The notes beneath the pieces were generated by a model. The model saw only the letters and a program-made list of their open reading frames with translations. It made no database searches and was not told the DNA's origin. A program made the translations under genes and the position numbers. A stretch of DNA of 64,000 nucleotides from Calvatia gigantea (taxonomy: Eukaryota; Basidiomycota; Agaricomycetes; Agaricales; Lycoperdaceae), in contig JACAAK010000002.1 of NCBI GenBank assembly GCA_025093985.1, forward strand, positions 868,001 through 932,000, in the 5' to 3' direction. Positions 2,583 to 64,000 of the stretch are shown here, in pieces (within the stretch, counting starts at the first letter, position 1; each line of letters starts with the position of its first letter).

Positions 2583-3490
2583 TTAAAGCAAGAACCCAGC
2601 AACTGCCGCAAACAGTGTAACAACGCCCACACCACCAGCCGAGCTCATACCCCTCACAGCAACGGCACCATTCGCGGGTACCCCGCTTGCACCGGCAGAA
2701 GAACTCGCAGCAGCAGCAGCAGTTCCACTGGCGGTAGCGCTACTCAAAGCCGTCGAAAATCCACTCCCTGAAGGCGCTACCGTGGGGAAAGATACACTAC
2801 TTGAGCCTGCAGCTGATGCTACGACGGGTCCTGTGGGTAAGCTTGAAGGCGGTGGGATAATGGAGCCAGTGCCTGTTGCTCCTACCACACCGCTTGCACC
2901 GGCAGCACCACCAGCGGCCGCGGCGTTCTTAGCATTAGCCTACGTATGTTTATTAGCCCGAGTTGCTCTATGAGTTGGGGTCAAACACACCTGGTAGGCG
3001 TCGAAAGACTTATCCGCGGTCGGGTTGACTGCAAAGACCATACCACTCTGGCAGTGGTTAACGGGATTGGTTTGTGCACAGAAGAACCATAAAGGAGTGG
3101 TAGTGTTGAGAGTGAAGCTCCATGAAGGACCCAATTGTGAATTAGGATCGACCGCCAAGAATCCGGAATCGATGCCGTTAGATGATTGTGTACACGGGGT
3201 TGCGAAACTGGACTCGGTGACGGAATGGTTCTTGGAAACACTGATAGGTGTTTGATTAGAGAGGGGGATACAGCGTATGGGAGTCATACATACAATTGGA
3301 AGTGGACGGTATCACCAAGCTGAGCCATCACTGAAGGGGGGTTGAAGGCCAGCTATAAACCTAACGTGAGCTAAAGCTCTTGTTAGAATAAGTGAGATAG
3401 ACTCACGCCGCCATCACCAACACGAACGTTGATATCAGCCGCGGAGGCAGCAAGAGCAGAAGCAAGAACGAAAGCAGCGAAGGAGAACAT
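2583..3490 (-). CDS. Secreted GPI-anchored cupredoxin-like serine/alanine-rich protein
   Basis: The start at 3490 gives a signal peptide (MFSFAAFVLASALAASAAD) and the cupredoxin N-strand DINVRVGDGG. Exon 1 ends at 3407 before a GTGAGT donor. The next exon carries VMAQLGDTVHFQF, and the following one SKNHSVTESSF and the metal-site region PLWFFCAQ...HCQSGMVFAVNP. This H...C...H arrangement is that of fungal blue-copper-like extracellular proteins. A last intron leads to a low-complexity Gly/Ala/Ser tail that ends in a hydrophobic stretch (GVVTLFAAVAGFLL), typical of a GPI-attachment signal. The methionine copper ligand is represented by the M of SGMVF, so copper binding is plausible but not shown. 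Such proteins are common in basidiomycete cell walls; the biological role is unknown. Confidence 0.88.
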
Positions 3491-4318
3491 TATGTCTTCC
3501 AAAAAGAAAAGAAGTTGGAATAATAGAACGAAGAAGTGGAAGATTCAGTAATTGGTCAATGAAGTACTGGCGGTGCCTCTGCCTGTTTTCGAGCCTACGA
3601 AGAGAGAAAGAAAAGAGAACTAGGTGAGCGCCTATGATAATAATATCAAGACCGACGATGCTCACCCTGCTCGTTCAAAATGAAGAAACCGAAAATGGGG
3701 ATGGAGGAGAAAGAGCCAGAGGGGCAGTCCACCCTTCCAACAGACCTTAAATTCTAGCCAAGCCCGCCGCGATCAAGGGTATCTATAACAACACAAATCA
3801 AATCTAAGAAAATTGCTCCATAAAGGGGTGACACGCAACCCCGCGATATAATTAGAGTGCAGATGATTGGACCGGGTTGAATGTGTGCAGTTGAGTGATT
3901 GATATGTAACTTATGTTTCTATGAACCAATATGATCAGAGTGTTTCGAGCGTTGACAAAACTTGGGTCGGCACTGTTCCTGAGAGATGGATGACGTTGGG
4001 CGATGCAGCCAGCGCAAATATGATGTCCTAGACGATAGGTACCAACCCAACCAAAGCTAATAGAACAACGAATAGATGGTTTGCCAAAATGGACGAATTT
4101 TGCAGAAGGTCACAGCAGCAACGCGTGGTGCAGCAAGTGACTGAATTGAGAGGGTTCGGCCAGTGATCAATTGATCCCCGGCCGGCCAACCCGACTGCCT
4201 ACACCCGATCAAAAATCTGTGTCATTGCTGTCCATACCAGATTGTTACTCGACAAAGCTGTAGCCACCCTCCCACTCACGTCAATTTGAAAACGACTGGA
4301 AATACCTGAGCAACGCAA
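3491..4318. promoter_or_regulatory. Divergent promoter region, cupredoxin (-) and thioredoxin (+)
   Basis: About 830 bp separate two divergently transcribed genes, so both promoters must lie here. I recognise no reading frame with family similarity, no repeat and no unambiguous TATA box or known operator. Confidence 0.5.
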
Positions 4319-22434: not shown

Positions 22435-25400
22435 CTAGAGCGTATCCCGAACAAATCCGAGGGTTCCCAACGATGACGCGATCAACTCCAGCACCCTCTG
22501 GCTCTCCCTCGCTTGTGCCCCTTCCAATTCCTCCAATCCCGTCTTAAGCTCCTGGTTTGTAATCAAAACATCAGCATGCAGCCGCAAAAATAAGTTCATG
22601 ACGGCCTCTACGGCCTCGAAATCTCGGTGTGTCACAAGACGTCGCCCAAGGGCATGCATGAAGGTATTTAAGCTCTGCAACGACGTCAGCGAGCGTATTT
22701 CGAGCTCTAGTGCTGCGGGTTGCAGCATTTTGACTTGATGGAAGAACCCTTCATCTGAGCTTAGAAGTCAATGCCTGTCACTGCTACCTAACCACAGAAA
22801 ATACTCACAATCTCCATTACAATCTTCCTCCATCAACTTCTTACGGAATGCACTCTCAGCATTGATGGCGGTCTTGTCCAGCCTCCGTGTGGGCTTTTTC
22901 GCCTCCTGAGCCTGTTTCTCTGTAGGGGCAAATCTTGTCTCCACCCCAGGTAATGTTGGAAGGAAGAATGGTGCCTTTTCTAGGGGTTTCGGTGGTTCCT
23001 TTGGTTTGTTGCGTTGTTGTATCACTTCAAGGTTTAGGAGAGTTTGCCATCGAGAGCGAGGAAGTAATGTTAATGTGATCAACTCGCCGTCGAGTTGTGG
23101 TGGTGTTGAGAAGACATCGGGCGATGTATCTTGTACTGTCAGAGCTTCCAGCGCTTCCAAGGCTAGAATGGAACTGAGTACAAGTTTTGGCGCTTTCTGG
23201 TCAGACCCACCATTGTCTTCCGCAGTGCCTTGCATAGATGGCAACGAGGCTTCCTGGACATCCTCCTCGGCAATGCTCTGGAATGACACGCTCATATACT
23301 GAGCGCGGTTGGCCCTGTCAAACCTGTGTTAGTTTTAGTAAGAACTTCCCGGTACAGAAAACCTACCACAGATAAACACCAACACTATCGACATGTGCAG
23401 TTGCCAAAAAGTCCCCTGTCGGCGAGAAAGATATACTCGTGGCGACGCTCGACGTCTTGAACGCGTCAATTAATTGACCAGTTGGAAGATCAAATGTCCG
23501 AATAATCGAATCTAATGAGGTTGTGATCAACCACCGAGCATCGCCGGAAAATGTCTATGCAAGGTTAAAGGGATCCGGGCAGGAGGTAAAGACAGATACC
23601 ACACTCACCATATCCAAAACTCGGCCACGAAAGCCGCCCAATTCCCTCACAATCCTCTTTGTCTCTATGTCTACGACCCGGACGACCGTGTCATCGCAAA
23701 TAACGGCCAACAGTCCGCTATCCCGGTGCAATAATATTGAAACTGCCGCCGAAGGTATAATTAACGTGTGTTCTAATTTTGTTGTTTGGAAATCGAAGAA
23801 CTAGGGTGGGTATCACATCCCCTGTTAGTCAAAGCCAAAAAGGTTGGAGTGAAAGCGATGCAGAGCTCCACTGACATTGAGCGTCCCATCAAGTGTGCTC
23901 GCGATGACAACTTGATTCAAGGAATCCGTAGCGAGGCCGGTGATTGTGCGTTCCCGTTTTTTTGCCCCGTTTCGTAGTTTTGAGGACGCCTCTGGTGGGC
24001 ATGGACCAATATCGTAGGATTTACGTTTGATACCTGATTGCATGTTCCACATATAGATTTGGCCCGTGGAAGAACCCGCGAGGCCAAAGTTACCACAGGC
24101 AGTGACGCATACATCCTGTCGAACATTCATATATACGCATATCGAGCCTTTATGGTAGTCATGGTGCTTACCTTAACAGAACCAAGAGGACTCCGCTCTT
24201 TTCCCTTCCCTTTTCCTGATTCCGAGAAACCAAACGTATGTTTGCCGAGTCGTTTATTGAGTATGGTCCACGAGCGGGCAAAAGTCTCGTCCCTGTGCGC
24301 AGTGAGGATGTCGTCCCAATCCTTGGAGCGCGTAGGCGAATATGAAATGGAAGTGATCGGAGGGAATTTTAAGGAAGCGATTGGTATTGAGAGCGAGGTT
24401 GCCTTTTTTGTAAGAGATCCTACAGATGTGTTCAACAACGAAACTAGAAGGGAAAAAAACTCAGGAATGTACCTTGAGACAGTTCAAACGACCTCGAATC
24501 TCTTACGACAGAGGTACACCTCAAACTACGATCTCTTGATGCTGTCAATAGCTGCTTTCCGTCTTCGCCATAATAACGGATCAAGTGCGGAGGAGCATGG
24601 TGACCAGAGCGGAACTTGAGCAGCCTTGGAGGAGACGTGGGGGAGTCAAATAACCATTGCTGGGGCGGATCAGTACGGTTGCTTCACAGTTTAACTGGAA
24701 CGCAGACCTTGACACTATTGTCCTCTCCTGATGTCACCAACACGGGTTGACCAGGAACCCATTCGACTGCTGTGATGGCACCGTCGTGTGCACCGCGTAT
24801 CATATGGAGCAAGCGACCACCGTTGTTGAGATCCCACAACGCAATATGACCAGCAGACGAAGCGGACGCGAGTATAGGCTGGCCATCTGGGGAAGAAAAC
24901 ACTAAGGTTCAGTAGAGGATAATGCTCCAGAGTGACCACACGCACCATTCCTGAACCCAAGAGCGCGAATTCCACCGTCCATAAACATTCTCATTAGCCG
25001 CTCATCAAGCCGGACATCGTACACAGAGATCTCTCCGGAGGAAAAACCGATACCGACCACATCTATTGCCGGTGATTGCACGAGAGCAGTGATGGCACTG
25101 CTGAGGACAGGTCCTGCATCAGATGATTCTGGCAACGACGTGAGTCTTGATAGCGAGAATTTGTAAATGCAGGTCCTAAAGTCTAGAATTAGTCTGGCGG
25201 AACAGAGGGAGGTATGGCTGTTCCCTCACTTAGTTTTGATATTCCAAAGTTGTAAAGTGCCCTGGCTGCTGGCGACGAGCACCTTGTTGACGTATGTTGC
25301 GGGATGAAGGATGGAAGACGCAGTGAAACCACGGTCGAACTGGATGGTTGACTGGAGTTCTGGTAGGTATCATGTTGGCATGTTACAGATCATGGTACCA

Positions 25401-25997
25401 CTGATGCACATACCTCCATCTGCCGTATTCCAGATTAATAGCCGTTCCCCTCCTTCGGTCAAGGCAAGAAGAAAAGTCCCAAATATGAGGATATAAGAAA
25501 GTGATGTATCCAAAGGATTCGTGAGCACGGAAATCTTGGTGCTGTGAGTGTTTTGTCCAGGCTAAAGCAAAAGAATTGACCTACTGGTTTTCCTCGAATA
25601 TACTTGATCGCGTGGGGTCCAGAGGCTGCCCAAACCGCGTCATCGTCAAGAGCCAGACTCGTTATTTGTTCGGGTGTATCGGGACCTGGGAATAAAGATC
25701 AATGTATATTTCTGAAAAAGACAAAACAAAATTCGCACCAACGAAAAGTAAGCCCATCTTTCCGCCCTCCCACAACGCCCACGCCTTCCCCAAACAGGTC
25801 AGGATATGAATTCTGGGACCATCGGTAGCGCCTTTGTAAGACCGTGTTTGCAGAACGAAGGGTACATGGTTTGTAATAAGTCCCAAGGCTCGAAAAGGCG
25901 CAAAGAGTCGCGGCCCCTTTGCTGCGGGTTTCTCTTGTCGTAGCCGTTTGCGAGGCGGTGGAGTTGAGTCGTCCATGTAGATAGATCTGCCTGTCAC
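22435..25997 (-). CDS. UTP21: UTP21 (WDR36-like), U3 snoRNP small-subunit processome WD40 protein
   Basis: Utp21 is a tandem WD40 propeller protein in the nucleolar SSU processome needed for 18S rRNA processing. The minus-strand gene starts at 25997 or, more likely, 25976 (MDDSTPPPRKRLRQEK). The start region reads RLFAPFRALGLITNHVPFVL, which is diagnostic. Blades are seen as GHIALWDLNNGGRLLH and GAITAVEWVPGQPVLVTSGE, and QDVCVTACGNFGLAGSSTGQ precedes NMQSGIKRKSYDIGPCPPE and ITGLATDSLNQVVIASTLDG. The C-terminal Utp21 domain follows: LITLTLLPRSRWQTLLNLE and KAPFFLPTLPGVETRF, then LEIRSLTSLQSLNTFMHALG and FRVRDTL-type ending (LGFVRDTL). About ten short introns interrupt it. The part 23156-25997 is included in a tandem duplication, but this copy keeps its full C-terminus and is presumably the working one. 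Confidence 0.93.
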
Positions 25998-26100
25998 TCT
26001 CTGTGATTTGTAATGTTTTCGCAGATGTTTTAGAGTGCTATCGCTCGTCCAAGTCCTGATCAGAGTCCTCTGTGCTGCGATGCAACTTTACTTTGGGGTT

Positions 26101-26106
26101 CACGTG
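26101..26106. promoter_or_regulatory. CACGTG palindrome in UTP21 promoter
   Basis: A perfect CACGTG E-box lies about 105-125 bp upstream of the UTP21 start. The same box occurs in the second unit at 29838-29843. Binding by a Cbf1/bHLH factor is an inference from the motif. Confidence 0.4.
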
Positions 26107-26630
26107 ACCTCAATTGGTGGTTAAAAAAAAGCTGATGCTGAGCGCTGATTGACAATCAACCTGATTCCAACTCGGCGCACAGGTGTCTAATCCTCATTTA
26201 TACAAACACACATCGCAACCGTCCATCATTCAGAGGATCCACAGCCATCCTGTTTATAACTCAATTGCGGCACCCTTAATTCTAAGGCAACCGAGCACGT
26301 CTGACAATGACAGTTCTCTGGGGGGCATATCACAATCCTGGATCCACTCTTGGCCGTACCTAGTCTATTTCTCGTTCGTGTGTTTTCTTCAACTTGTTCT
26401 ATGTGATGTCTTCTGGATTCAGCAACTCTTCCCCAGTTTGAACTTGATCAACTGATTCTTCAGAAACCCCAGCTCGTGATGTTACCTTCAACCTGATCTG
26501 AGCATTCTTATAAACTATTTTAGATGCGGTGGTTGACATCCGCGCCCGATGTCTCTTGGATTCATCCAAAGATGAACCTCCGGCTCATCCGACGTGGGTA
26601 TCTGTCACCAATTGGCCGCCCATGTCAAGG

Positions 26631-26637
26631 TATAAAA
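26631..26637 (+). promoter_or_regulatory. TATA box of truncated secreted-protein copy
   Basis: TATAAAA lies 135 bp upstream of the ATG at 26766, with a CCAAT motif (CACCAATTGG) just before it. The identical promoter is at 30368-30374 for the intact gene. Confidence 0.6.
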
Positions 26638-26765
26638 CACACATAGTTCAATCTGTTCCTTGGTGTGGAATTCTTTCTTTCTCTTTTCATTTTGAGCCAG
26701 GTGCTCTCATTCGTTCACTTCTTGTTTTTATCCTATATTTTTCCCCTCATATAATCCTTTCCACA

Positions 26766-26903
26766 ATGAAGCTTACAACGACTTTCTTCACCCTTTCGTT
26801 GGCTCTGACTGCGATCTCGACACCCCTCGGAGATCGCGCTGTCTTCAGAAGGCACACAGGCGTTCCCGCGAACAATGCACGGCGCTATATTCTCCAAGGC
26901 TAG
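26766..26903 (+). pseudogene. Truncated secreted-protein copy, 45-residue signal-peptide ORF
   Basis: The duplication copied only exon 1 of the neighbouring secreted-protein gene. Reading from 26766 gives the same signal peptide (MKLTTTFFTLSLALTAIS) and TPLGDRAVFRRHTG, then at the junction ends ILQG followed by TAG at 26901-26903. The donor site of intron 1 is lost. The promoter with TATA box is retained, so a 45-residue secreted peptide could be made. It would contain RR sites but nothing else recognisable. Most simply it is a truncated pseudogene; expression would be needed to say more. Confidence 0.75.
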
Positions 26904-29733
26904 AATGAACTGAGTACAAGTTTTGGCGCTTTCTGGTCAGACCCACCATTGTCTTCCGCAGTGCCTTGCATAGATGGCAACGAGGCTTCCTGGACATCCT
27001 CCTCGGCAATGCTCTGGAATGACACGCTCATATACTGAGCGCGGTTGGCCCTGTCAAACCTGTGTTAGTTTTAGTAAGAACTTCCCGGTATAGAAAACCT
27101 ACCACAGATAAACACCAACACTATCGACATGTGCAGTTGCCAAAAAGTCCCCCGTCGGCGAGAAAGATACACTCGTGGCGACGCTCGACGTCTTGAACGC
27201 GTCAATTAATTGACCAGTTGGAAGATCAAATGTCCGAATAATCGAATCTAATGAGGTTGTGATCAACCACCGAGCATCGCCGGAAAATGTCTATGCAAGG
27301 TTAAAGGGATCCGGGCAGGAGGTAAAGACAGATACCACACTCACCATATCCAAAACTCGGCCACGAAAGCCGCCCAATTCCCTCACAATCCTCTTTGTCT
27401 CTATGTCTACGACCCGGACGACCGTGTCATCGCAAATAACGGCCAACAGTCCGCTATCCCGGTGCAATAATATTGAAACTGCCGCCGAAGGTATAATTAA
27501 CGTGTGTTCTAATTTTGTTGTTTGGAAATCGAAGAACTAGGGTGGGTATCACATCCCCTGTTAGTCAAAGCCAAAAAGGTTGGAGTGAAAGCGATGCAGA
27601 GCTCCACTGACATTGAGCGTCCCATCAAGTGTGCTCGCGATGACAACTTGATTCAAGGAATCCGTAGCGAGGCCGGTGATTGTGCGTTCCCGTTTTTTTT
27701 GCCCCGTTTCGTAGTTTTGAGGACGCCTCTGGTGGGCATGGACCAATATCGTAGGATTTACGTTTGATACCTGATTGCATGTTCCACATATAGATTTGGC
27801 CCGTGGAAGAACCCGCGAGGCCAAAGTTACCACAGGCAGTGACGCATACATCCTGTCGAACATTCATATATACGCATATCGAGCCTTTATGGTAGTCATG
27901 GTGCTTACCTTAACAGAACCAAGAGGACTCCGCTCTTTTCCCTTCCCTTTTCCTGATTCCGAGAAACCAAACGTATGTTTGCCGAGTCGTTTATTGAGTA
28001 TGGTCCACGAGCGGGCAAAAGTCTCGTCCCTGTGCGCAGTGAGGATGTCGTCCCAATCCTTGGAGCGCGTAGGCGAATATGAAATGGAAGTGATCGGAGG
28101 GAATTTTAAGGAAGCGATTGGTATTGAGAGCGAGGTTGCCTTTTTTGTAAGAGATCCTACAGATGTGTTCAACAACGAAACTAGAAGGGAAAAAAACTCA
28201 GGAATGTACCTTGAGACAGTTCAAACGACCTCGAATCTCTTACGACAGAGGTACACCTCAAACTACGATCTCTTGATGCTGTCAATAGCTGCTTTCCGTC
28301 TTCGCCATAATAACGGATCAAGTGCGGAGGAGCATGGTGACCAGAGCGGAACTTGAGCAGCCTTGGAGGAGACGTGGGGGAGTCAAATAACCATTGCTGG
28401 GGCGGATCAGTACGGTTGCTTCACAGTTTAACTGGAACGCAGACCTTGACACTATTGTCCTCTCCTGATGTCACCAACACGGGTTGACCAGGAACCCATT
28501 CGACTGCTGTGATGGCACCGTCGTGTGCACCGCGTATCATATGGAGCAAGCGACCACCGTTGTTGAGATCCCACAACGCAATATGACCAGCAGACGAAGC
28601 GGACGCGAGTATAGGCTGGCCATCTGGGGAAGAAAACACTAAGGTTCAGTAGAGGATAATGCTCCAGAGTGACCACACGCACCATTCCTGAACCCAAGAG
28701 CGCGAATTCCACCGTCCATAAACATTCTCATTAGCCGCTCATCAAGCCGGACATCGTACACAGAGATCTCTCCGGAGGAAAAACCGATACCGACCACATC
28801 TATTGCCGGTGATTGCACGAGAGCAGTGATGGCACTGCTGAGGACAGGTCCTGCATCAGATGATTCTGGCAACGACGTGAGTCTTGATAGCGAGAATTTG
28901 TAAATGCAGGTCCTAAAGTCTAGAATTAGTCTGGCGGAACAGAGGGAGGTATGGCTGTTCCCTCACTTAGTTTTGATATTCCAAAGTTGTAAAGTGCCCT
29001 GGCTGCTGGCGACGAGCACCTTGTTGACGTATGTTGCGGGATGAAGGATGGAAGACGCAGTGAAACCACGGTCGAACTGGATGGTTGACTGGAGTTCTGG
29101 TAGGTATCATGTTGGCATGTTACAGATCATGGTACCACTGATGCACATACCTCCATCTGCCGTATTCCAGATTAATAGCCGTTCCCCTCCTTCGGTCAAG
29201 GCAAGAAGAAAAGTCCCAAATATGAGGATATAAGAAAGTGATGTATCCAAAGGATTCGTGAGCACGGAAATCTTGGTGCTGTGAGTGTTTTGTCCAGGCT
29301 AAAGCAAAAGAATTGACCTACTGGTTTTCCTCGAATATACTTGATCGCGTGGGGTCCAGAGGCTGCCCAAACCGCGTCATCGTCAAGAGCCAGACTCGTT
29401 ATTTGTTCGGGTGTATCGGGACCTGGGAATAAAGATCAATGTATATTTCTGAAAAGACAAAACAAAATTCGCACCAACGAAAAGTAAGCCCATCTTTCCG
29501 CCCTCCCACAACGCCCACGCCTTCCCCAAACAGGTCAGGATATGAATTCTGGGACCATCGGTAGCGCCTTTGTAAGACCGTGTTTGCAGAACGAAGGGTA
29601 CATGGTTTGTAATAAGTCCCAAGGCTCGAAAAGGCGCAAAGAGTCGCGGCCCCTTTGCTGCGGGTTTCTCTTGTCGTAGCCGTTTGCGAGGTGGTGGAGT
29701 TGAGTCGTCCATGTAGATAGATCTGCCTGTCAC
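26900..29733 (-). pseudogene. UTP21 second copy, truncated before the Utp21 domain
   Basis: The minus-strand copy keeps the promoter, start (29733 or 29712) and the WD40 blades of UTP21 but stops at the duplication edge. Its last residues are KLVLSSF and a TAG at 26902-26900. The parental gene continues SSILALEALEAL and then the C-terminal Utp21 domain, about 250 residues that are absent here. The stop arises because one G is missing just before the junction, shifting the frame. Intron sites are unchanged, so a truncated protein could be translated. Utp21 lacking its C-terminus would probably not assemble into the processome, and could in principle interfere with it. That effect is speculation. 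Confidence 0.85.
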
Positions 29734-30367
29734 TCTCTGTGATTTGTAATGTTTTCGCAGATGTTTTTAGAGTGCTATCGCTCGTCCAAGTCCTGATCAG
29801 AGTCCTCTGTGCTGCGATGCAACTTTACTTTGGGGTTCACGTGACCTCAATTGGTGGTTAAAAAAAAGCTGATGCTGAGCGCTGATTGACAATCAACCTG
29901 ATTCCAACTCGGCGCACAGGTGTCTGATCCTCATTTATACAAACACACATCGCAACCGTCCATCATTCAGAGGATCCACAGCCATCCTGTTTATAACTCA
30001 ATTGCGGCACCCTTAATTCTAAGGCAACCGAGCACGTCTGACAATGACAGTTCTCTGGGGGGCATATCACAATCCTGGATCCACTCTTGGCCGTACCTAG
30101 TCTATTTCTCGTTCGTGTGTTTTCCTCAACTTGTTCTATGTGATGTCTTCTGGATTCAGCAACTCTTCCCCAGTTTGAACTTGATCAACTGATTCTTCAG
30201 AAACCCCAGCTCGTGATGTTACCTTCAACCTGATCTGAGCATTCTTATAAACTATTTTAGATGCGGTGGTTGACATCCGCGCCCGATGTCTCTTGGATTC
30301 ATCCAAAGATGAACCTCCGGCTCATCCGACGTGGGTATCTGTCACCAATTGGCCGCCCATGTCAAGG

Positions 30368-30374
30368 TATAAAA
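30368..30374 (+). promoter_or_regulatory. TATA box of secreted-protein gene
   Basis: TATAAAA is 135 bp upstream of the ATG at 30503, preceded by CACCAATTGG. Same arrangement as at 26631. Confidence 0.6.
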
Positions 30375-30502
30375 CACACATAGTTCAATCTGTTCCTTGG
30401 TGTGGAATTCTTTCTTTCTCTTTTCATTTTGAGCCAGGTGCTCTCATTCGTTCACTTCTTGTTTTTATCCTATATTTTTCCCCTCATATAATCCTTTCCA
30501 CA

Positions 30503-31911
30503 ATGAAGCTTACAACGACTTTCTTCACCCTTTCGTTGGCTCTGACTGCGATCTCGACACCCCTCGGAGATCGCGCTGTCTTCAGAAGGCACACAGGCGT
30601 TCCCGCGAACAATGCACGGCGCTATATTCTCCAAAGGTGAAGAATTCTTTAAAGATTACCTATTAGACTTTTTGCTCACCAAATCTCACAGCCGCATGGA
30701 TGCGCCTCCAGCTTGCATTGCTAAAGCCTCAAGCGCAAACCCTACCGATCTTCCCGACCTCTCCAACTCCACCGTTGTAGACCCTTCGGCAACTGACATC
30801 CCCACCAACTCTACTGACGACACTTCTGTCCCTAACATTGACAACTCCGACAACTCCACCGACACCACCGACACCACTGACACAACAAACACTGATGTTC
30901 CCGATGACACTTCTGCCGACAATTCAACTTCTGTAGATGCTTCCAACTCTACGGATGCCGGTGCTCGCCGTCGCCGGGGACTCAACGCGCGCTTTGCGCA
31001 GTTGGACATCTTTGACCTGGCCGTTGAATGGCAAACACTTTGTTTACACAGTGGTGGGGCGGGCGTCTTCACTGAACACTCACCTTGCGTGGAGTTTGCC
31101 GGCCTTGGAGGAATTAATGCCCTTCTCGTAGACGCTGATCCTTGCGCTCAGCAAGTGATTGCTGATTCCATGATCACGTTCGCAAAATCTTCGGGCATTG
31201 TCAACAGGGGTGCTCTGATTGCCTTTGCCCTCAAGTATAGGCGTCACCCCAGGAATGCAGTCAACATCCTTGGTGTCGTTCCTTCGACTTTGTACTGTCT
31301 GGACGCACCCACCAACCCTGAATTGGTCGGTGTATGGAATGGCCAGTTGGACGGTGTCAATCCGGGTCTCTTTGGCTCCCCCAACTCTCCCATGGTACCA
31401 TTTGGCGCTCGTAAGTTCATTTATTGTTAGTTAATCATTCTTGCGGCTGACAAGTTCAATAGAGGGAACCTGCCCCCTCGGTACTACTCCCGATGTCTCT
31501 ACTTGCTCTTGCGTACCGGACACAACCGGCAGATCTGATCTTAACCCACCAAGCGACGGGAGCGTCGATAACTCCACCGTCTCCGACGCATCGGTAACCG
31601 ACTCTGTTGACAATCCGACAGCTACCGCCACCGACTCTGTTGACGATCCGACAGCTACTGCCACCGACGCTGCCACTCCCACCGATAGCGCAATCGCAAC
31701 TGACAGCGCAGCTACAGATGCTCCTGCTCCTACCGACTCCGCCACTGATTCTTCGGACCCCAATGCGTCGGCGGCTGCTGATGATGCCGCTGCCACCCCG
31801 GCTGCCACTGACTCTACCACCCCTTCAAGTACGATCAAAGTTGATGGGCTCAACGCCCAGCCGACTGATATTTCGGGTGATGTAAATGATCCCAACGGGC
31901 GAAGGAAGTAA
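30503..31911 (+). CDS. Secreted Ser/Thr/Asp-rich protein with dibasic sites, unknown function
   Basis: Three exons: 30503-30636, then from about 30693 after a GTGAAG...CACAG intron, and from about 31463 after a second intron. A signal peptide (MKLTTTFFTLSLALTAIS) is followed by a linker rich in NST, DTT and DNST repeats, then ARRRRGLNAR, a likely Kex2 cleavage site. The conserved core reads LAVEWQTLCLHSGG, SPCVEFAGLGGINALLVDAD, PCAQQVIADSMITFAKS, HPRNAVNILGVVPSTLYC and LDGVNPGLFGSPNSP, with several cysteines. Exon 3 starts GTCPLGTTPDVSTCSC and ends in a long Thr/Ala/Ser/Asp-rich tail and NGRRK. I recall similar cores in Agaricomycete secreted proteins, but no function is known to me. Glycosylation and processing are inferred from composition. 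Confidence 0.85.
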
Positions 31912-58920: not shown

Positions 58921-59505
58921 TTCATGCTCAATGTAGAACACAGAATACAGACAGTCCAACCAACATCGTGAGTAAAGTCAACCAAGGGTGAAGCTTGAAG
59001 CTTGAAGCTTGAAGTATGTCCTTGTCGGTATTTCCTGAATCCCTTTGAACCTCACTGGTGAGTAGGCGCCCTCAACTGCAGGAGTCGACACCCTGTTTCG
59101 GCTGGGTGAAAATCCATGTGTTCAAGGGCGATTTTCTCGGTGCCAACGCTCAGCGTTCACCCGTGCTTTCAAATTATCTCGGCTCTTACGAGTTCTGTCC
59201 TGAGCGCGTTCTATGACCCGACTATTTCCTCGGGGCACACAGGCGACTTTGTCATGCGGACGATCGTACCTGCCCTCCGGAACGCCCGTGGTAGCAAGCA
59301 AATCATCATCATGGAGTACGTCATCTCCAAGCCGCCCTGGGCGAACCCGTCAAGTGGAGCTGCTATTGCTTCCATGGACGACGAGTGTTCAGCACCGCCG
59401 AACCTCAACTGTGCTTGTCGCGATGATCATTCCATCTTGGTGTTCGCGTTTGAATACGGTGACCAGCTTTGGAAAGGGAATGCCAATGAGCAGAACTTCA
59501 GCATA
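58921..59505 (+). pseudogene. GH17 second copy, 5'-truncated, left of Tc1 insertion
   Basis: This copy begins in what is intron sequence of the first GH17 gene (matching 46122) and so lacks the N-terminal half and signal peptide. It reads HTGDFVMRTIVPALRNARGS and KQIIIMEYV. The Glu-Ser-Gly-Trp-Pro nucleophile motif is missing and replaced by KPPWANPSSGAAIASMD, followed by LNLNCACRDDHSILVFAFEY and GNANEQNFSI. An AAGCTTG repeat has expanded to about four units at 58990-59015, where the first copy has one. The sequence then stops at a TA (59504-59505) where two Tc1-like elements are inserted, and resumes at 63721. Confidence 0.82.
58990..59015. repeat. AAGCTTG tandem repeat
   Basis: A 7-bp unit repeated about four times inside the GH17 pseudogene; the homologous site in the first copy (46185-46195) has a single unit. 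Confidence 0.7.
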
Positions 59506-59716
59506 CAGTAAGGGACAAAACCCTTCCAATGATTTTGACTTTTTCATGAAATCTCAAATAACTCAGCAACCACTAAGCCAATTCATTTCAAATTTTAAAT
59601 GAAGGTAGTCATGCTTCTTATCTACAGATACGTTTAAGCATTTAATATTATACTTTGTTTCTATGGAGATATGAATTATTGAATATTATGAGTGCATTGG
59701 AAGGGTTTTGTCCCTC
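59506..59716 (+). repeat. Element 1 left terminal inverted repeat
   Basis: About 211 bp, itself bounded by inverted copies of the 20-mer GGGACAAAACCCTTCCAATG. It pairs with 61869-62155. Confidence 0.85.
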
Positions 59717-59845
59717 ATCTTCTCCAGGCACATAACTCTGTTTACTGCTCTCAAACAAATTCAAATAAAATCATATGATGAGAGTAGATTGTGTATAAAG
59801 ATGAAAGCTTACTTCTCCAGGCCAAAGTAACCCAATAACTTATCT

Positions 59846-60682
59846 TCTGTTGACACGAAACCTCTCTCTTCTTCTCAGATTGATCATATCCTCTTTCTCC
59901 TTGACAAAGGACATACTGCTACCCAAATTGCTTCCACTACTGGTTATTCCCTCAGTACTATCTCTAGAGTTCGCTCTAAACATAGGCCAACAATTTCCAA
60001 ATCCACTGGTGGCTGTCCAAGCAAGCTTTCCCCCTCTGATACCAAATATGCCATTCGACTTCTCACCTCTTGCAAGGCCGATAATGCCTCTCAGGTCACA
60101 AAGGCCCTCCAAGATGTTACCAACCAACCTGTTTCATCCAAAACAATTCAAAGGACACTCAAAAGGGCAGGGATGAAGGCTGTAGTGAAGAGAAAATGGC
60201 CTTTACTCACTAGGGTTCACAAGCAGAAGAGGCTGGTGTTTGCAAAAACATATGCAAACTGGACTGTGGAGGACTGGAAGCAGGTAGTTTGGACAGATGA
60301 GACTAAAATCAATTGGATGGGGTCAGATGGAAGGCATTGGGTGTGGAAAACAGCAGGAGAGGGGCTTAGTGACAGGCTGGTGAATGGAACTGTCAAGTTT
60401 GGAGGAGGTTCTTGCATGATATGGGGGTGCATGCTATGGCAGGGGCCTGGCCATATACATCACATTGAAGGTACCATGGATGGTGACCTTTATGTTTGCA
60501 TTTTGGATGACAAACTTTACCAAAGTCTCAAGAAATACAGGAAGAAGAAGTGGCAAGTCCTTTTCCAACAGGACAATGACCCCAAACACACAAGCAAAAA
60601 AGCAAAAATGTGGCTTGAAAACAGTGGTTTAAAGGTTATGGAGTGGCCACCACAGTCCCCAGACCTTAATCCCATTGAACAG
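59846..60682 (+). pseudogene. Tc1-like transposase, N-terminal and most of the catalytic domain
   Basis: Reading in one frame gives an HTH region (ILFLLDKGHTATQIASTTGY and SLSTISRVRSKHRPTISKS), a second HTH (SKLSPSDTKYAIRLLTSCKA) and AGMKAVVKRKWPLL. The catalytic domain follows: VVWTDETKINWMG (first Asp), FGGGSCMIWGCMLWQGPGHI, LFQQDNDPKHTSKKAKMW (second Asp) and PPQSPDLNPIE (Glu). I count 34 residues between the second Asp and the Glu, the DD34E signature of Tc1 transposases. No in-frame ATG precedes the first HTH; TAA lies just upstream. After NPIEQL the frame enters GH17 DNA (QPPWANPS). The C-terminus continues at 61661. So this copy is inactive. Confidence 0.88.
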
Positions 60683-61660
60683 CTCCAGCCGCCCTGGGCG
60701 AACCCGTCAAGTGGAGCCGCTATTGCTTCCATGGACGACGAGTGTTCAGCACCGCCGAACCTCAACTGTGCTTGTCGCGATGATCGTTCCATCTTGGTGT
60801 TCGCGTTTGAATACGGTGACCAGCTTTGGAAAGGGAATGCCAATGAGCAGAACTTCGGCATATATGGCAAGCTGGATCTCAACGGTGATGTTTCGATACC
60901 ATGCTAAGAAGAGATTCCTGCATCTGGACCACGAATGCTTATATTTGTCAAAGAATGCCTCCCTGGTAGCGGACTTCTGAGCGGAGGGCGCACAATCAAT
61001 GAGCGTAGAGATCGTGCCGACTTGATGAGTTCGGCATTTATATATCCTAATTTGAGAGACGGAAGTTATACTAAGAATTATTCGAACGGCGTAAGAACTA
61101 GGGTCCTCGAAGGCCTAAATTTCGTAGGAAAGAAAGATTTTCTAGGCATTTAGCTCTGCCTAGCTCCATCTCTCCGCTAATAGGGATTCCGACTGCTCAT
61201 TACGTTCTCTCCTATGCCAGGTTTCATGCGAGATCTAGGTACTAGGTTAATATGGGCCGAACAGTAGGCTGGGGGACGTACAACATGATACCAATCCCTC
61301 TTGCCCCCGTTCCAGGTTGAGTAAATATCGCTGCAACGAACGCACTCGAATCTCTGTTCGCATTGCCACATTTCTGAGATCGTAGCTGTCTGAGGGTCCA
61401 TTCCAAAAAGTGTTATAACCTCCTTCGCGATTTCGTGCTTCTGGGAGTCGAATTTTAAATCGTAACAGTCCCAATCCCATGGTCGCTCCCAAACCCCACA
61501 TCGTTTCAACTCGTCGCGCATTCGACCATCCTTCGTAATGCGACTAGAGTCGGTCATCCCAAAGCGATAACTACAGACACGGTCAATCGTATCAGAGCCA
61601 GAAGGGGATCCACCATGAAGGAACAGAGATGCAAAAAGCAGTTTTCGTAAAGGTTTGTCC
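60683..61660 (+). repeat. Captured host fragment (GH17 3' end and downstream) inside Tc1 element 1
   Basis: The first 183 bp match 59327-59505 and the following part, from TATGGCAAGC, matches 63721-64000, i.e. both flanks of the insertion site joined without the element. The fragment continues through the F-box-type remnant to about 61660, where transposase coding resumes. Identity with the flanks is about 98-99 percent by eye; with the 46-kb locus it is much lower. A short GTCCTT is shared at the right join and CTCCA at the left. Confidence 0.85.
61177..61640 (-). pseudogene. F-box-type C-terminal fragment, captured copy
   Basis: The minus strand reads RPWDWDCYDLKFDSQKHEIA, DPQTATISEMWQCEQRFECV, RCSDIY and HVVRPPAYCSAHINLVPR. 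It is the counterpart of 47067-47570 and lies inside the captured fragment. The reading is open over about 126 codons from 61557 but there is no F-box and no confirmed start. Confidence 0.5.
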
Positions 61661-61841
61661 TTATGTCAAAAACAGGCTAGAAGAGTATGAAAACTACCCT
61701 TCCAGCATAACTGAACTCAGAGAAAGGGTGGATATAGAATGGGGCAAAATTCCTGCATCAGTGTGTCAGAATTTGATAGAGAGTATGCCTAGGAGGGTTC
61801 AGGCTGTTTTACAGGCCAAAGGGGGCTATACAAAGTACTAG
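61661..61841 (+). pseudogene. Tc1-like transposase, C-terminal piece
   Basis: Plus-strand text reads PYVKNRLEEYENYPSSITEL, RERVDIEWGKIPASVCQNLI and ESMPRRVQAVLQAKGGYTKY with the stop at 61841. This is the typical Tc1 C-terminus (W-x-x-IP, ESMPRR, GGxTKY). Joined to 60682 it would complete the transposase apart from a few residues at the join. Confidence 0.85.
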
Positions 61842-61868
61842 AGAACTGATTTTGTGTAGTTTCAGACA

Positions 61869-62155
61869 GAGGGACAAAACCCTTCCAATGGACTCATAAT
61901 GTTGATTAATTCATATCACCACAGGAACTTAATATTACATAATGCTGTTTATACCTAGTAGATAAGATACAAGACTATGTTGATTAATTCATATCACCAC
62001 AGAACTTAATATTACATAATGCTGTTTATACCTAGTAGATAAGATACAAGACTACCCTACATTTAAATTCTGAAGTGGATACCTTTACTGGTTGCTGAGT
62101 TATTTGAGATTTCATGAAAAAGTCAAAATCATTGGAAGGGTTTTGTCCCTTACTG
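61869..62155 (-). repeat. Element 1 right terminal inverted repeat
   Basis: About 287 bp that pair with the left repeat. The outer 65 bp are nearly identical to the left end; the middle is diverged and contains a 78-bp direct duplication. Confidence 0.82.
61899..62053. repeat. 78-bp tandem duplication in element 1 right end
   Basis: Two near-identical units (starting ATGTTGATTAATTCATATCA at 61899 and 61977) differ by one missing G in the second unit. Confidence 0.88.
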
Positions 62156-62157
62156 TA
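62156..62157. other. TA dinucleotide shared by the two Tc1 elements
   Basis: The two elements abut with only TA between them (TTACTG-TA-CAGTAA). This is what insertion of one element at the duplicated TA beside the other would leave. Confidence 0.85.
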
Positions 62158-62369
62158 CAGTAAGGGACAAAACCCGTTCCAATGTTTTGAACTTCTCAGA
62201 AGATCAGCTCATATCTCAAGGACTACTGTGGCTGTGCACTTCCTAATTTAATTGTAGATAGTCCAGTATCTTATCTAATCATATGCAAAGTATGATTATG
62301 TAATCCTTTGTTTTAGGGGAGTTACTTAATAATTAATATTTTAAGTGCATTGGAACAGTTTTGTCCCTC
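62158..62369 (+). repeat. Element 2 left terminal inverted repeat
   Basis: About 212 bp bounded by inverted copies of a variant of the GGGACAAAAC...TTCCAATG motif; pairs with 63508-63718. Confidence 0.85.
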
Positions 62370-62875
62370 TTGAAATTTATATACAAAATGGGTATTCTAG
62401 TACAGCGAGGTCAGCCTGTACTATTGCCAAAGGTAGGGATAGAAATTGGACCATTCCGGATATAAAGGCTTCTTGCAAACCCGCAACTACCGAACCGTAC
62501 CCATGTGACATTGCACACCTTTATTCAATCAAAATTTTCTGGAGCGACCAGACGAAAAATCACAAATGATTTTCTCAAAAGGAACGTATATTAGGGAGCA
62601 GAGATGTTCAATGGAAAGGCTGGAGCTGTGGCCACATAACATCTTCAGCTATCTAGCATTTGTAGCTTTTCCTAGCTGGTGGAAATCCTGCCCTCGATCC
62701 AAAGTCCTCATCTTCCCACCAAATGATGCTCAACTTCTGCCCAAAAATTAACAAGAGTAAGCTCCTCTCCTTAAATTCGTGTCATCCAGGCATCCACCAT
62801 GCCGAGATCCCCTGCCTCACCAAACTGAGGTTCCCTCTCCGATGTTTGCGCCTTCCGTTTTAGTGACATCCTCGG
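62370..62875. other. Unrelated filler DNA in element 2
   Basis: This stretch replaces the catalytic C-terminal half of the transposase. It has no Tc1 similarity and no recognisable coding sequence. It ends at the KINRFG-coding position of the transposase. By analogy with element 1 it may be captured host DNA, but no parental locus is in the window. Confidence 0.5.
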
Positions 62876-63368
62876 AATGACGGTTACCTCTGGGTCGTTT
62901 TCCAAACCGATTGATTTTGGACTCATCTGTCCAAATAACCCTCTTCCAGTCCTCCAGGGTCCAGTTAACATGTGCTTCTGCCCACTCCAACCTTTTCCTC
63001 CTATGGACAGCAGTAAGTTTAGGTCGTTTCCGCTTGACTACAGCCTTCATTCCAGCTCCTCTGAGTGCCCTGCGCACTGTTTTGGTGGATACAGGCTGGG
63101 CAATAACATTTTGAAGTGATTTGGTGACTTGGGAGGCATTGTCAGCCTTGCGAGAGGTGATGAGGCGAACAGAATAGTGGATATCAGAGGGAGAAAGTTT
63201 AGATGGGCGGCCACCAACAGATTTGGAAAGTGTTGATCTATGTTTGGAGCGAATCCTAGAAATAGTACTGACTCCCAGACCAGTAATAGAAGCAATATGA
63301 TGAGCAGATTTCCCTTGGTCCAGGTAAGAGAGGACTCTATTGGTCTGAGTAGAGGAAAGAGAGCGCAT
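62817..63368 (-). pseudogene. Tc1-like transposase of element 2, truncated
   Basis: The start at 63368 (MRSLSSTQTNRVLSYLDQGK) leads to HHIASITGLGVSTISRIRSK, a second HTH (SKLSPSDIHYSVRLITSRKA), QPVSTKTVRRALRGAGMKAV and VNWTLEDWKRVIWTDESKIN, with the first catalytic Asp in WTDE. After RFG it runs into unrelated sequence (KRPRGNRHSEDVTKTEG) and stops at 62817. DNA-binding domains are complete, catalytic residues two and three are missing. Such a product could bind the terminal repeats but not cut. It is about 60 percent similar to element 1's transposase, so the two elements are distinct lineages. Confidence 0.85.
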
Positions 63369-63507
63369 ATAGTTGTAAAGGTATAGTGGGGGAGTTAATT
63401 TGCACCTGAGAATAAGCACATCCATTTATACATCACCCTACATGGTCACATGATTTTATTTGTATTTATTTGATTGCAATAAACGAAGTCATGTGCTCAG
63501 AATTTGA

Positions 63508-63718
63508 GAGGGACAAAACTGTTCCAATGTACTTAAAATATTAATTAATTAATAACTCCCCCAAAACAAAGGATTACATAATCATACTTTGCATATGATT
63601 AGATAAGATACTGGACTATCTACAATTAAATTAGGAAGTGCACAGCCACAGTAGTCCTTGAGTTATGAGCTGATCTTCTGAAAAGTTCAAAACATTGGAA
63701 TGGTTTTGTCCCTTACTG
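63508..63718 (-). repeat. Element 2 right terminal inverted repeat
   Basis: About 211 bp, inverse of 62158-62369 with few differences. Confidence 0.85.
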
Positions 63719-63720
63719 TA

Positions 63721-64000
63721 TATGGCAAGCTGGATCTCAACGGTGATGTTTCAATACCATGCTAAGAAGAGATTCCTGCATCTGGACCACGAATGCTTAT
63801 ATTTGTCAAAGAATGCCTCCCTGGTAGCGGACTTCTGAGCGGAGGGCGCACAATCAATGAGCGTAGAGATCGTGCCGACTTGATGAGTTCGGCATTTATA
63901 TATCCTAATTTGAGAGACGGAAGTTATACTAAGAATTGTTCGAACGGCGTAAGAACTAGGGTCCTCGAAGGCCTAAATTTCGTAGGAAAGAAAGATTTTC
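63721..64000 (+). pseudogene. GH17 second copy, right of Tc1 insertion (runs off right edge)
   Basis: The text resumes exactly where 59505 stopped, after removal of the elements and one TA: GKLDLNGDVSIPC and TAA, then the downstream non-coding region. It matches the captured fragment at 60866-61145 almost base for base and continues beyond the window. Confidence 0.85.

Follow-up and report, generated by a model that had tools for sequence, protein, structure and literature searches.

A Tc1-like element of Calvatia gigantea assembled with a copy of its own empty target locus inside it

Two Tc1-like elements at one TA site

The window, a stretch of 64,000 nucleotides from the genome assembly of the basidiomycete Calvatia gigantea (contig JACAAK010000002.1, positions 868,001 to 932,000), contains toward its right end two Tc1-like elements, E1 and E2 (Table 1). 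From left to right the site consists of left flank, TA, E1, TA, E2, TA and right flank, so that a single TA was hit twice. The E1 and E2 families are Tc1/mariner transposons: TA flanks E1, E2 and each of 20 listed E1-family copies; the terminal inverted repeats (TIRs) of ~212 bp are 85% alike in the E1 consensus and 97.7% alike in the E2-family copy L072; and the Pfam domains PF01498 (HTH_Tnp_Tc3_2) and PF13358 (DDE_3) score above cut-off in both the E1 left arm and the L072 protein. In another E1-family copy at a TA (L017, C9) the adjoining TATATGGCAAGC is common with the E1/E2 target; the wider flanks looked unrelated.

Table 1. Positions in the window of the two elements, their target site and the DNA inserted in E1
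Feature	Position	Strand	Description
Left flank	59322..59505	+	source-like to the first 180 bp of the insert; 97.3% over 184, 98% over 180
TA target, left copy, closing the left flank	59504..59505		reads ...AACTTCAGCATA then CAGTAAGGGACAAAACC
Element E1, Tc1-like	59506..62155	+	2650 bp assembled versus 1605 bp in family copies; TIR survey
E1 left arm	59506..60685	+	consensus 1-1180, 12 substitutions, 0 indel
Insert, empty-site copy of the locus	60686..61659	+	974 bp: left flank 180 bp + right flank ~800 bp, through TA
E1 right arm	61660..62155	+	consensus 1185-1605; clean to ~61955, private indels beyond
TA separating E1 from E2	62156..62157		from sequence
Element E2, second Tc1-like family	62158..63718	-	opposite orientation to E1; reference copy L072, 1605 bp
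Low-quality stretch in E2	62402..62900		locus DNA C12:933520-933753, then own transposase (reference ~1183-819)
Right TA copy and right flank	63719..64000	+	extends into L069; source-like to the last 800 bp of the insert

The E1-family consensus of 1605 bp was derived from 20 two-ended copies (18 of 1605 bp, one of 1604 and one of 1630). Compared with it, E1 retains positions 1-1180 and 1185-1605 with 974 bp in between, so that 4 bp of the element are absent. The E1 transposase is not intact, its start ATG being changed to ACG and its frame broken by the insert, and E1 accordingly does not count as autonomous. Its right TIR contains a 79-bp head-to-tail repeat (61899-61977 and 61977-62054) whose two units both carry a TTT deletion; this deletion is absent from all other fetched loci, ~51-52 of which (some of them the same element twice) show the intact form.

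The E2 element is disturbed over 497-499 bp, starting 247 bp past E1, where locus DNA from 1.8 kb downstream has been copied and is followed by E2's own transposase. The first 33 bases match the downstream locus perfectly, and beyond them both parts are full of small indels, deletions outnumbering insertions. Against the locus, 62402-62600 shows 29 deletion events (41 bases), 3 insertion events (4 bases) and 6 mismatches; against E2's own family, 62598-62920 shows 45 deletion events (94 bases), 15 insertion events (32 bases) and 27 mismatches. The bad stretch has its right edge at 62900, within transposase that is otherwise continuous, and one mismatch occurs in the 818 bases beyond. It is probably a failed consensus window; trouble with inverted repeats in nanopore reads (PMC7229812) was considered as another origin of the patch.

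The DNA inserted in E1 and its source

The presence of an empty-site copy of the locus inside E1 is confirmed in the assembly: about 980 bp of own-locus DNA, as in the original prediction, lie within the element and read through the single TA without interruption, although the span, previously placed at 60683-61660, is corrected to 60686-61659. When aligned to the joined flanks (the sequence up to 59505 followed by that from 63721) the insert is colinear over ~980 bp with 6 substitutions, and indels occur only at the junction bases. It matches the left flank at 98% and the right flank at a value that rounds to 100%, against 77% for a paralogue 46 kb into the window (C12) and 73% for one on C74; the earlier statement that it is closest to its own flanks and clearly less like the 46-kb paralogue is thus upheld. 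A search of the 46-Mb genome with the insert gave 8 matches, all of which were scored, and the whole query is covered by the insert alone; the check for a better donor elsewhere, which had been proposed, found none among these matches. Another locus, or a nested LTR or other transposable element, was ruled out as the identity of the insert, which is DNA of E1's own locus. Two details fared less well. The junction homologies, given as CTCCA on the left and GTCCTT on the right, shrink under a strict definition to ~3 bp on the left, where CTC is common and one A of AA is gone, and to 2 bp on the right, where CT is common. The GH17 label of the locus comes from the original prediction; Pfam assigned no family to the four fragments tested.

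The insert differs from the flanks at 60718, 60786, 60857, 60895, 61080 and 61309. At the first four of these sites the aligning paralogues match the insert, which is thus ancestral at 4 of the 4 clearly polarised sites; at 61080 two paralogues differ from one another, and at 61309 no paralogue aligns. At five of the six sites the insert has CpG where the flank has TpG or CpA, four of the six are no more than 144 bp from the insertion point, and two of the flank changes alter an encoded residue (R to H and G to S). Given the ancestral base at each site that can be clearly polarised, the donor seems to have been an empty allele rather than the present flanks, and this would be true whether the join was made in the cell or in the assembly.

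A possible pair of alleles is seen at a locus other than that of E1. Sequences on C58 (L015) and C34 (L011) are 99.55% identical over 2,654 bp, after which an E2-family element occupies a TA of C58 whose counterpart in C34 is empty. This pair looks like two haplotypes with the insertion in one, and it may instead be a recent segmental duplication.

Local DNA in other elements and the lengths of the inserts

The terminal motif of the elements occurs 436 times in the genome, and at least 397 of the 436 ends were listed by their preceding bases. Adjacent facing ends no more than 8 kb apart form at least 141 pairs, in part between two separate elements; at least 106 pairs span exactly 1605 bp and at least 29 fall outside 1600-1610 bp, most of the latter (e.g. 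those at +343, +1024 and +1913) being left out of the capture count. Among these there may be additional captures, or insert lengths that break the 500-bp pattern. Inspection for internally split elements covered 65 fetched loci, some of them the same element twice. Left out of the capture counts were L036 and L059, which are local repeats, L019 and L053, and those with one partial arm only: L014, L027, L031, L032, L037, L043, L047, L052, L056, L057, L059, L060 and L067. The split elements L041, L050 and L065, whose LTR-like inserts have short target duplications, likewise remain uncounted, and C3:1221108-1224827 comprises two elements rather than a single long one. As regards the local repeats, in L036 (C74) a 1630-bp E1-family element lies between direct repeats (441-1461 and 3155-4175) that exceed 1 kb and are 99.6% alike, and in L059 (C56) 155 bp at 351-505, upstream of a partial E1-family element, are identical to the right flank at 2503-2657.

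Three further elements of the two families, at C45, C23 and C5, were found to contain local DNA, in every case in direct orientation. The C45 element has a 493-bp insert with a loss of 10 bp, the source being 100% identical and lying 2.9 kb upstream at 867376-867875. The C5 element (L073) has a 998-bp insert with 0 bp lost; its best match is ~99% identical and lies 1 kb upstream, and ten other copies are 80-85% identical. An initial reading took this insert for a nested dispersed repeat, but a query with the insert alone cannot bound a repeat, and in view of the 99% match at a distance of 1 kb it is treated as a candidate for local capture. The C23 element (L046 and L076, C23:4011000-4016310) is a more complicated mosaic that consists of flank 1-485, consensus 312-517, further flank, and consensus 514-1605: the first 311 bp of the element are replaced by ~485 bp of right flank (99.4% identical), and an inner insert of 499 bp, with ~0 bp lost, is 99.8% identical to its source over 416 comparable bp. 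Of the C23 flank, ~485 bp are used, ~500 are skipped and ~499 are used, the last end being set by the insert length; the right-flank gene at this locus is presumably a DASH complex Ask1 gene.

The four inner inserts (974, 493, 499 and 998 bp in E1, C45, C23 and C5) and the bad E2 stretch are 1-26 bp below multiples of 500, and the loss where the elements are split is 4 bp in E1, 10 in C45, 0 in C5 and ~0 in C23. This agrees with what windowed polishing would be expected to leave, pieces near n x 500 with no more than ~10 bp lost at the split; the C23 element is additionally without its first 311 bp. A pattern as tight for 500 arose in none of 200,000 random draws, and when any modulus from 200 to 1000 in steps of 5 was allowed it arose in a fraction of 0.00175 of 4,000 draws; both tests are post hoc, the pattern having been seen before. 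On the same post hoc basis the filler lengths, together with the 497-499-bp patch, are not independent of software units.

A second regularity concerns indels, of which the 20 E1-family copies show 2 per 32,125 columns. In stretches beside the inserts and the patch, picked after the indels had been seen, there are 14 in 807 columns (3/183, 3/245, 7/173 and 1/206). Zero indels are found over 1180 and 291 columns of E1, 818 of E2, 875 and 563 of C77, 922 and 673 of C45, 913 and 692 of C5, and 1092 of C23. Low consensus quality is seen in E1 from ~61955, in E2, in C77 and in C23, with none in the C45 and C5 arms or in the E1 insert; two of the four captures (C45 and C5) are clean in both arms, and E1 is clean at both junctions. 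The C77 locus (C77:2461473-2464575) was chosen since its excess of 1494 bp is about 3 x 500, and its length, not being independent, was excluded from the length statistics. The expectation for this locus, no LTR, no target duplication and little loss, was set after the sequence had been fetched and before it was read. A non-LTR insert without target duplication and with almost no loss was found, accompanied by 7 indels in 173 columns at one junction.

Assembly mosaic and gap filling weighed

Assembly and polishing come under suspicion because of the lengths near multiples of 500, the near-exact continuity of the elements across the inserts, the ~499-bp bad stretch and the indel clusters. The E1 insert would then be empty-allele DNA stitched in by assembly and windowed polishing, which is the best-supported reading and a reasonably probable one. 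The sample would have contained two alleles at the E1 locus, one empty and one carrying E1 (and E2), and a stretch of an empty-allele read would have been placed by error into the draft contig inside E1. A read-tiling draft that takes a short stretch from each read could allow such entry, since a heterozygous insertion would displace the offsets. Polishing by windows, whichever program was used, would subsequently swap partly affected windows for true element sequence, while windows that are entirely foreign would receive no usable read segments, so that about two 500-bp windows of empty-allele DNA might survive. VeChat (PMC9636371) divides sequence into 500-bp windows and points to Racon for the read-pile step, and a windowed long-read consensus of this kind resembles the present case in its unit of ~500 bp, in whole units being kept and in the element being continuous on either side. 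For a mushroom, Marasmius oreades, the use of miniasm, Racon and HyPo has been described (PMC9674265), an example only and one with no link to the present genome.

A toy model of the polishing step used 500-bp windows and left the draft unchanged in any window that received fewer than 10 read bases, a rule which we take to be the behaviour of the polisher. With affine gaps, 27 of 30 drafts retained foreign DNA; in 26 of these its length was an exact multiple of 500, and no more than 8 read bases were lost. The single non-multiple and the 8-base loss trace to a short last window. With unit gap costs the foreign DNA was removed in 30 of 30 drafts. Since the affine model worked and the unit-cost model did not, a mosaic requires contiguous gaps or split overlaps. 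The model as run does not account for the absent first 311 bp of the C23 element.

The main rival is that the join was made in vivo, in the manner of the Pack-TIRs, i.e. a break in E1 near consensus 1181, a 3' end that would switch by short homology to the empty homologue and copy ~975 bp through the unoccupied site, and a return to the element. This is judged, again from the sequence, a tentative explanation that is clearly the less probable. Among 100 animal genomes Tan et al. 2021 (PMC8277862) list 370 Pack-TIRs, 115 of them in TcMariner elements, so that capture by a Tc1-like element is not as unusual as had been supposed. Of 281 unique cases in that paper 160 lie within 15 kb of their source and 190 have microhomology at one breakpoint or more, with a median of 2 bp, and the gap in the element has a median of 4.6% of the element length (PMC8277862). 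The assembled E1 shows the corresponding features, a filler of non-TE origin between the TIRs whose parental copy lies elsewhere, a nearby source, microhomology and a small gap; the cis source, the 2-3 bp of junction homology and the 4-bp loss match the published animal pattern, TcMariner included, and E1 is like the gap-filled animal elements also in being a single-copy case in a Tc1/mariner TIR element. Unlike them, the E1 filler spans its own empty target site, is found in a fungal genome, has a length near a multiple of 500 and is known here from the assembly alone. No filler spanning the element's own empty target site was found in the available text of Tan et al. 2021 (PMC8277862) or in a non-exhaustive literature search. 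Capture in vivo gains further support from the local fillers in the three further elements, from the ancestral base at all four clear sites, as expected from an empty allele, and from the lack of internal indels in the insert. Arguing against it are the lengths near multiples of 500 and the C23 breakpoints ~500 and 499 bp apart, the bad stretch of ~499 bp beside E1 and the indel clusters near several inserts, as well as the need for a template that lacks E1 and E2 alike.

On balance, the evidence speaks for the assembly mosaic rather than for real gap filling. Counted for the mosaic are the two assembled versions at C58 and C34 that differ by an E2-family insertion. Counted against it are the ~980-bp insert without an internal indel, the clean adjoining arms, and the identities of 100% and ~99% to source at C45 and C5; because inserts and arms are clean, raw-read errors must on this reading have been mended later. 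The 311 bp lost at C23, the failure of the unit-cost model and the Pack-TIR-like combination of local fillers, small loss and microhomology likewise count against the mosaic.

Two other routes have very little probability. For other cut-and-paste elements, excision followed by gap filling is known, and the abortive gap repair products of Ac/Ds contain filler from near the insertion site of such an element; P-element and Ac/Ds repair products usually show an internal deletion of the element, however, whereas E1 misses 4 bp. Excision of E1 with faulty repair of the gap left behind, as originally proposed, could draw on the presence of the empty-site copy and on the P element, for which filling after excision, from near the insertion site, has been demonstrated as cited by Tan et al. 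(PMC8277862). Such repair should leave larger losses and breaks towards the ends (PMC8277862), and here 4 bp are lost and the arms are otherwise complete, which makes this route highly improbable. Of the proposed template switch into the empty locus, the donor locus and its empty state have held, and a join in the cell is not favoured; were the join genuine, a loss of only 4 bp would be more in keeping with the filling of a break within the element than with excision and subsequent gap repair. Acquisition of the piece by E1 at another locus or from a paralogue, with later insertion here, is if anything more improbable still and is contradicted by the present assembly: nothing was found to support it, among the genome matches only the insert covers the whole query, the paralogues are 73-77% identical, and the piece spans exactly the TA that E1 and E2 occupy.

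The reading in which E1 holds its own empty target site as the result of a break in a heterozygous element patched from the empty homologue, an event that would be repeated in this genome in four elements, is accordingly put forward as doubtful. If true, E1 would record the pre-insertion allele and keep ancestral bases that the flanks have lost, and it would represent inter-allelic repair within a Tc1-like element, with a copy of the empty allele preserved beside the filled one. If the insert is an artefact, as is preferred, it would be a close mimic of template switching in vivo, complete with microhomology, local source, direct orientation and empty-site sequence. For surveys of transposon capture in long-read assemblies, filler lengths need to be compared with the polishing window and junction-spanning reads are needed.

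Elsewhere in the window, positions 23156-30634 comprise a head-to-tail duplication of 3.74 kb whose units are 99.7% alike, 4 of the 10 differences being homopolymer-length indels.
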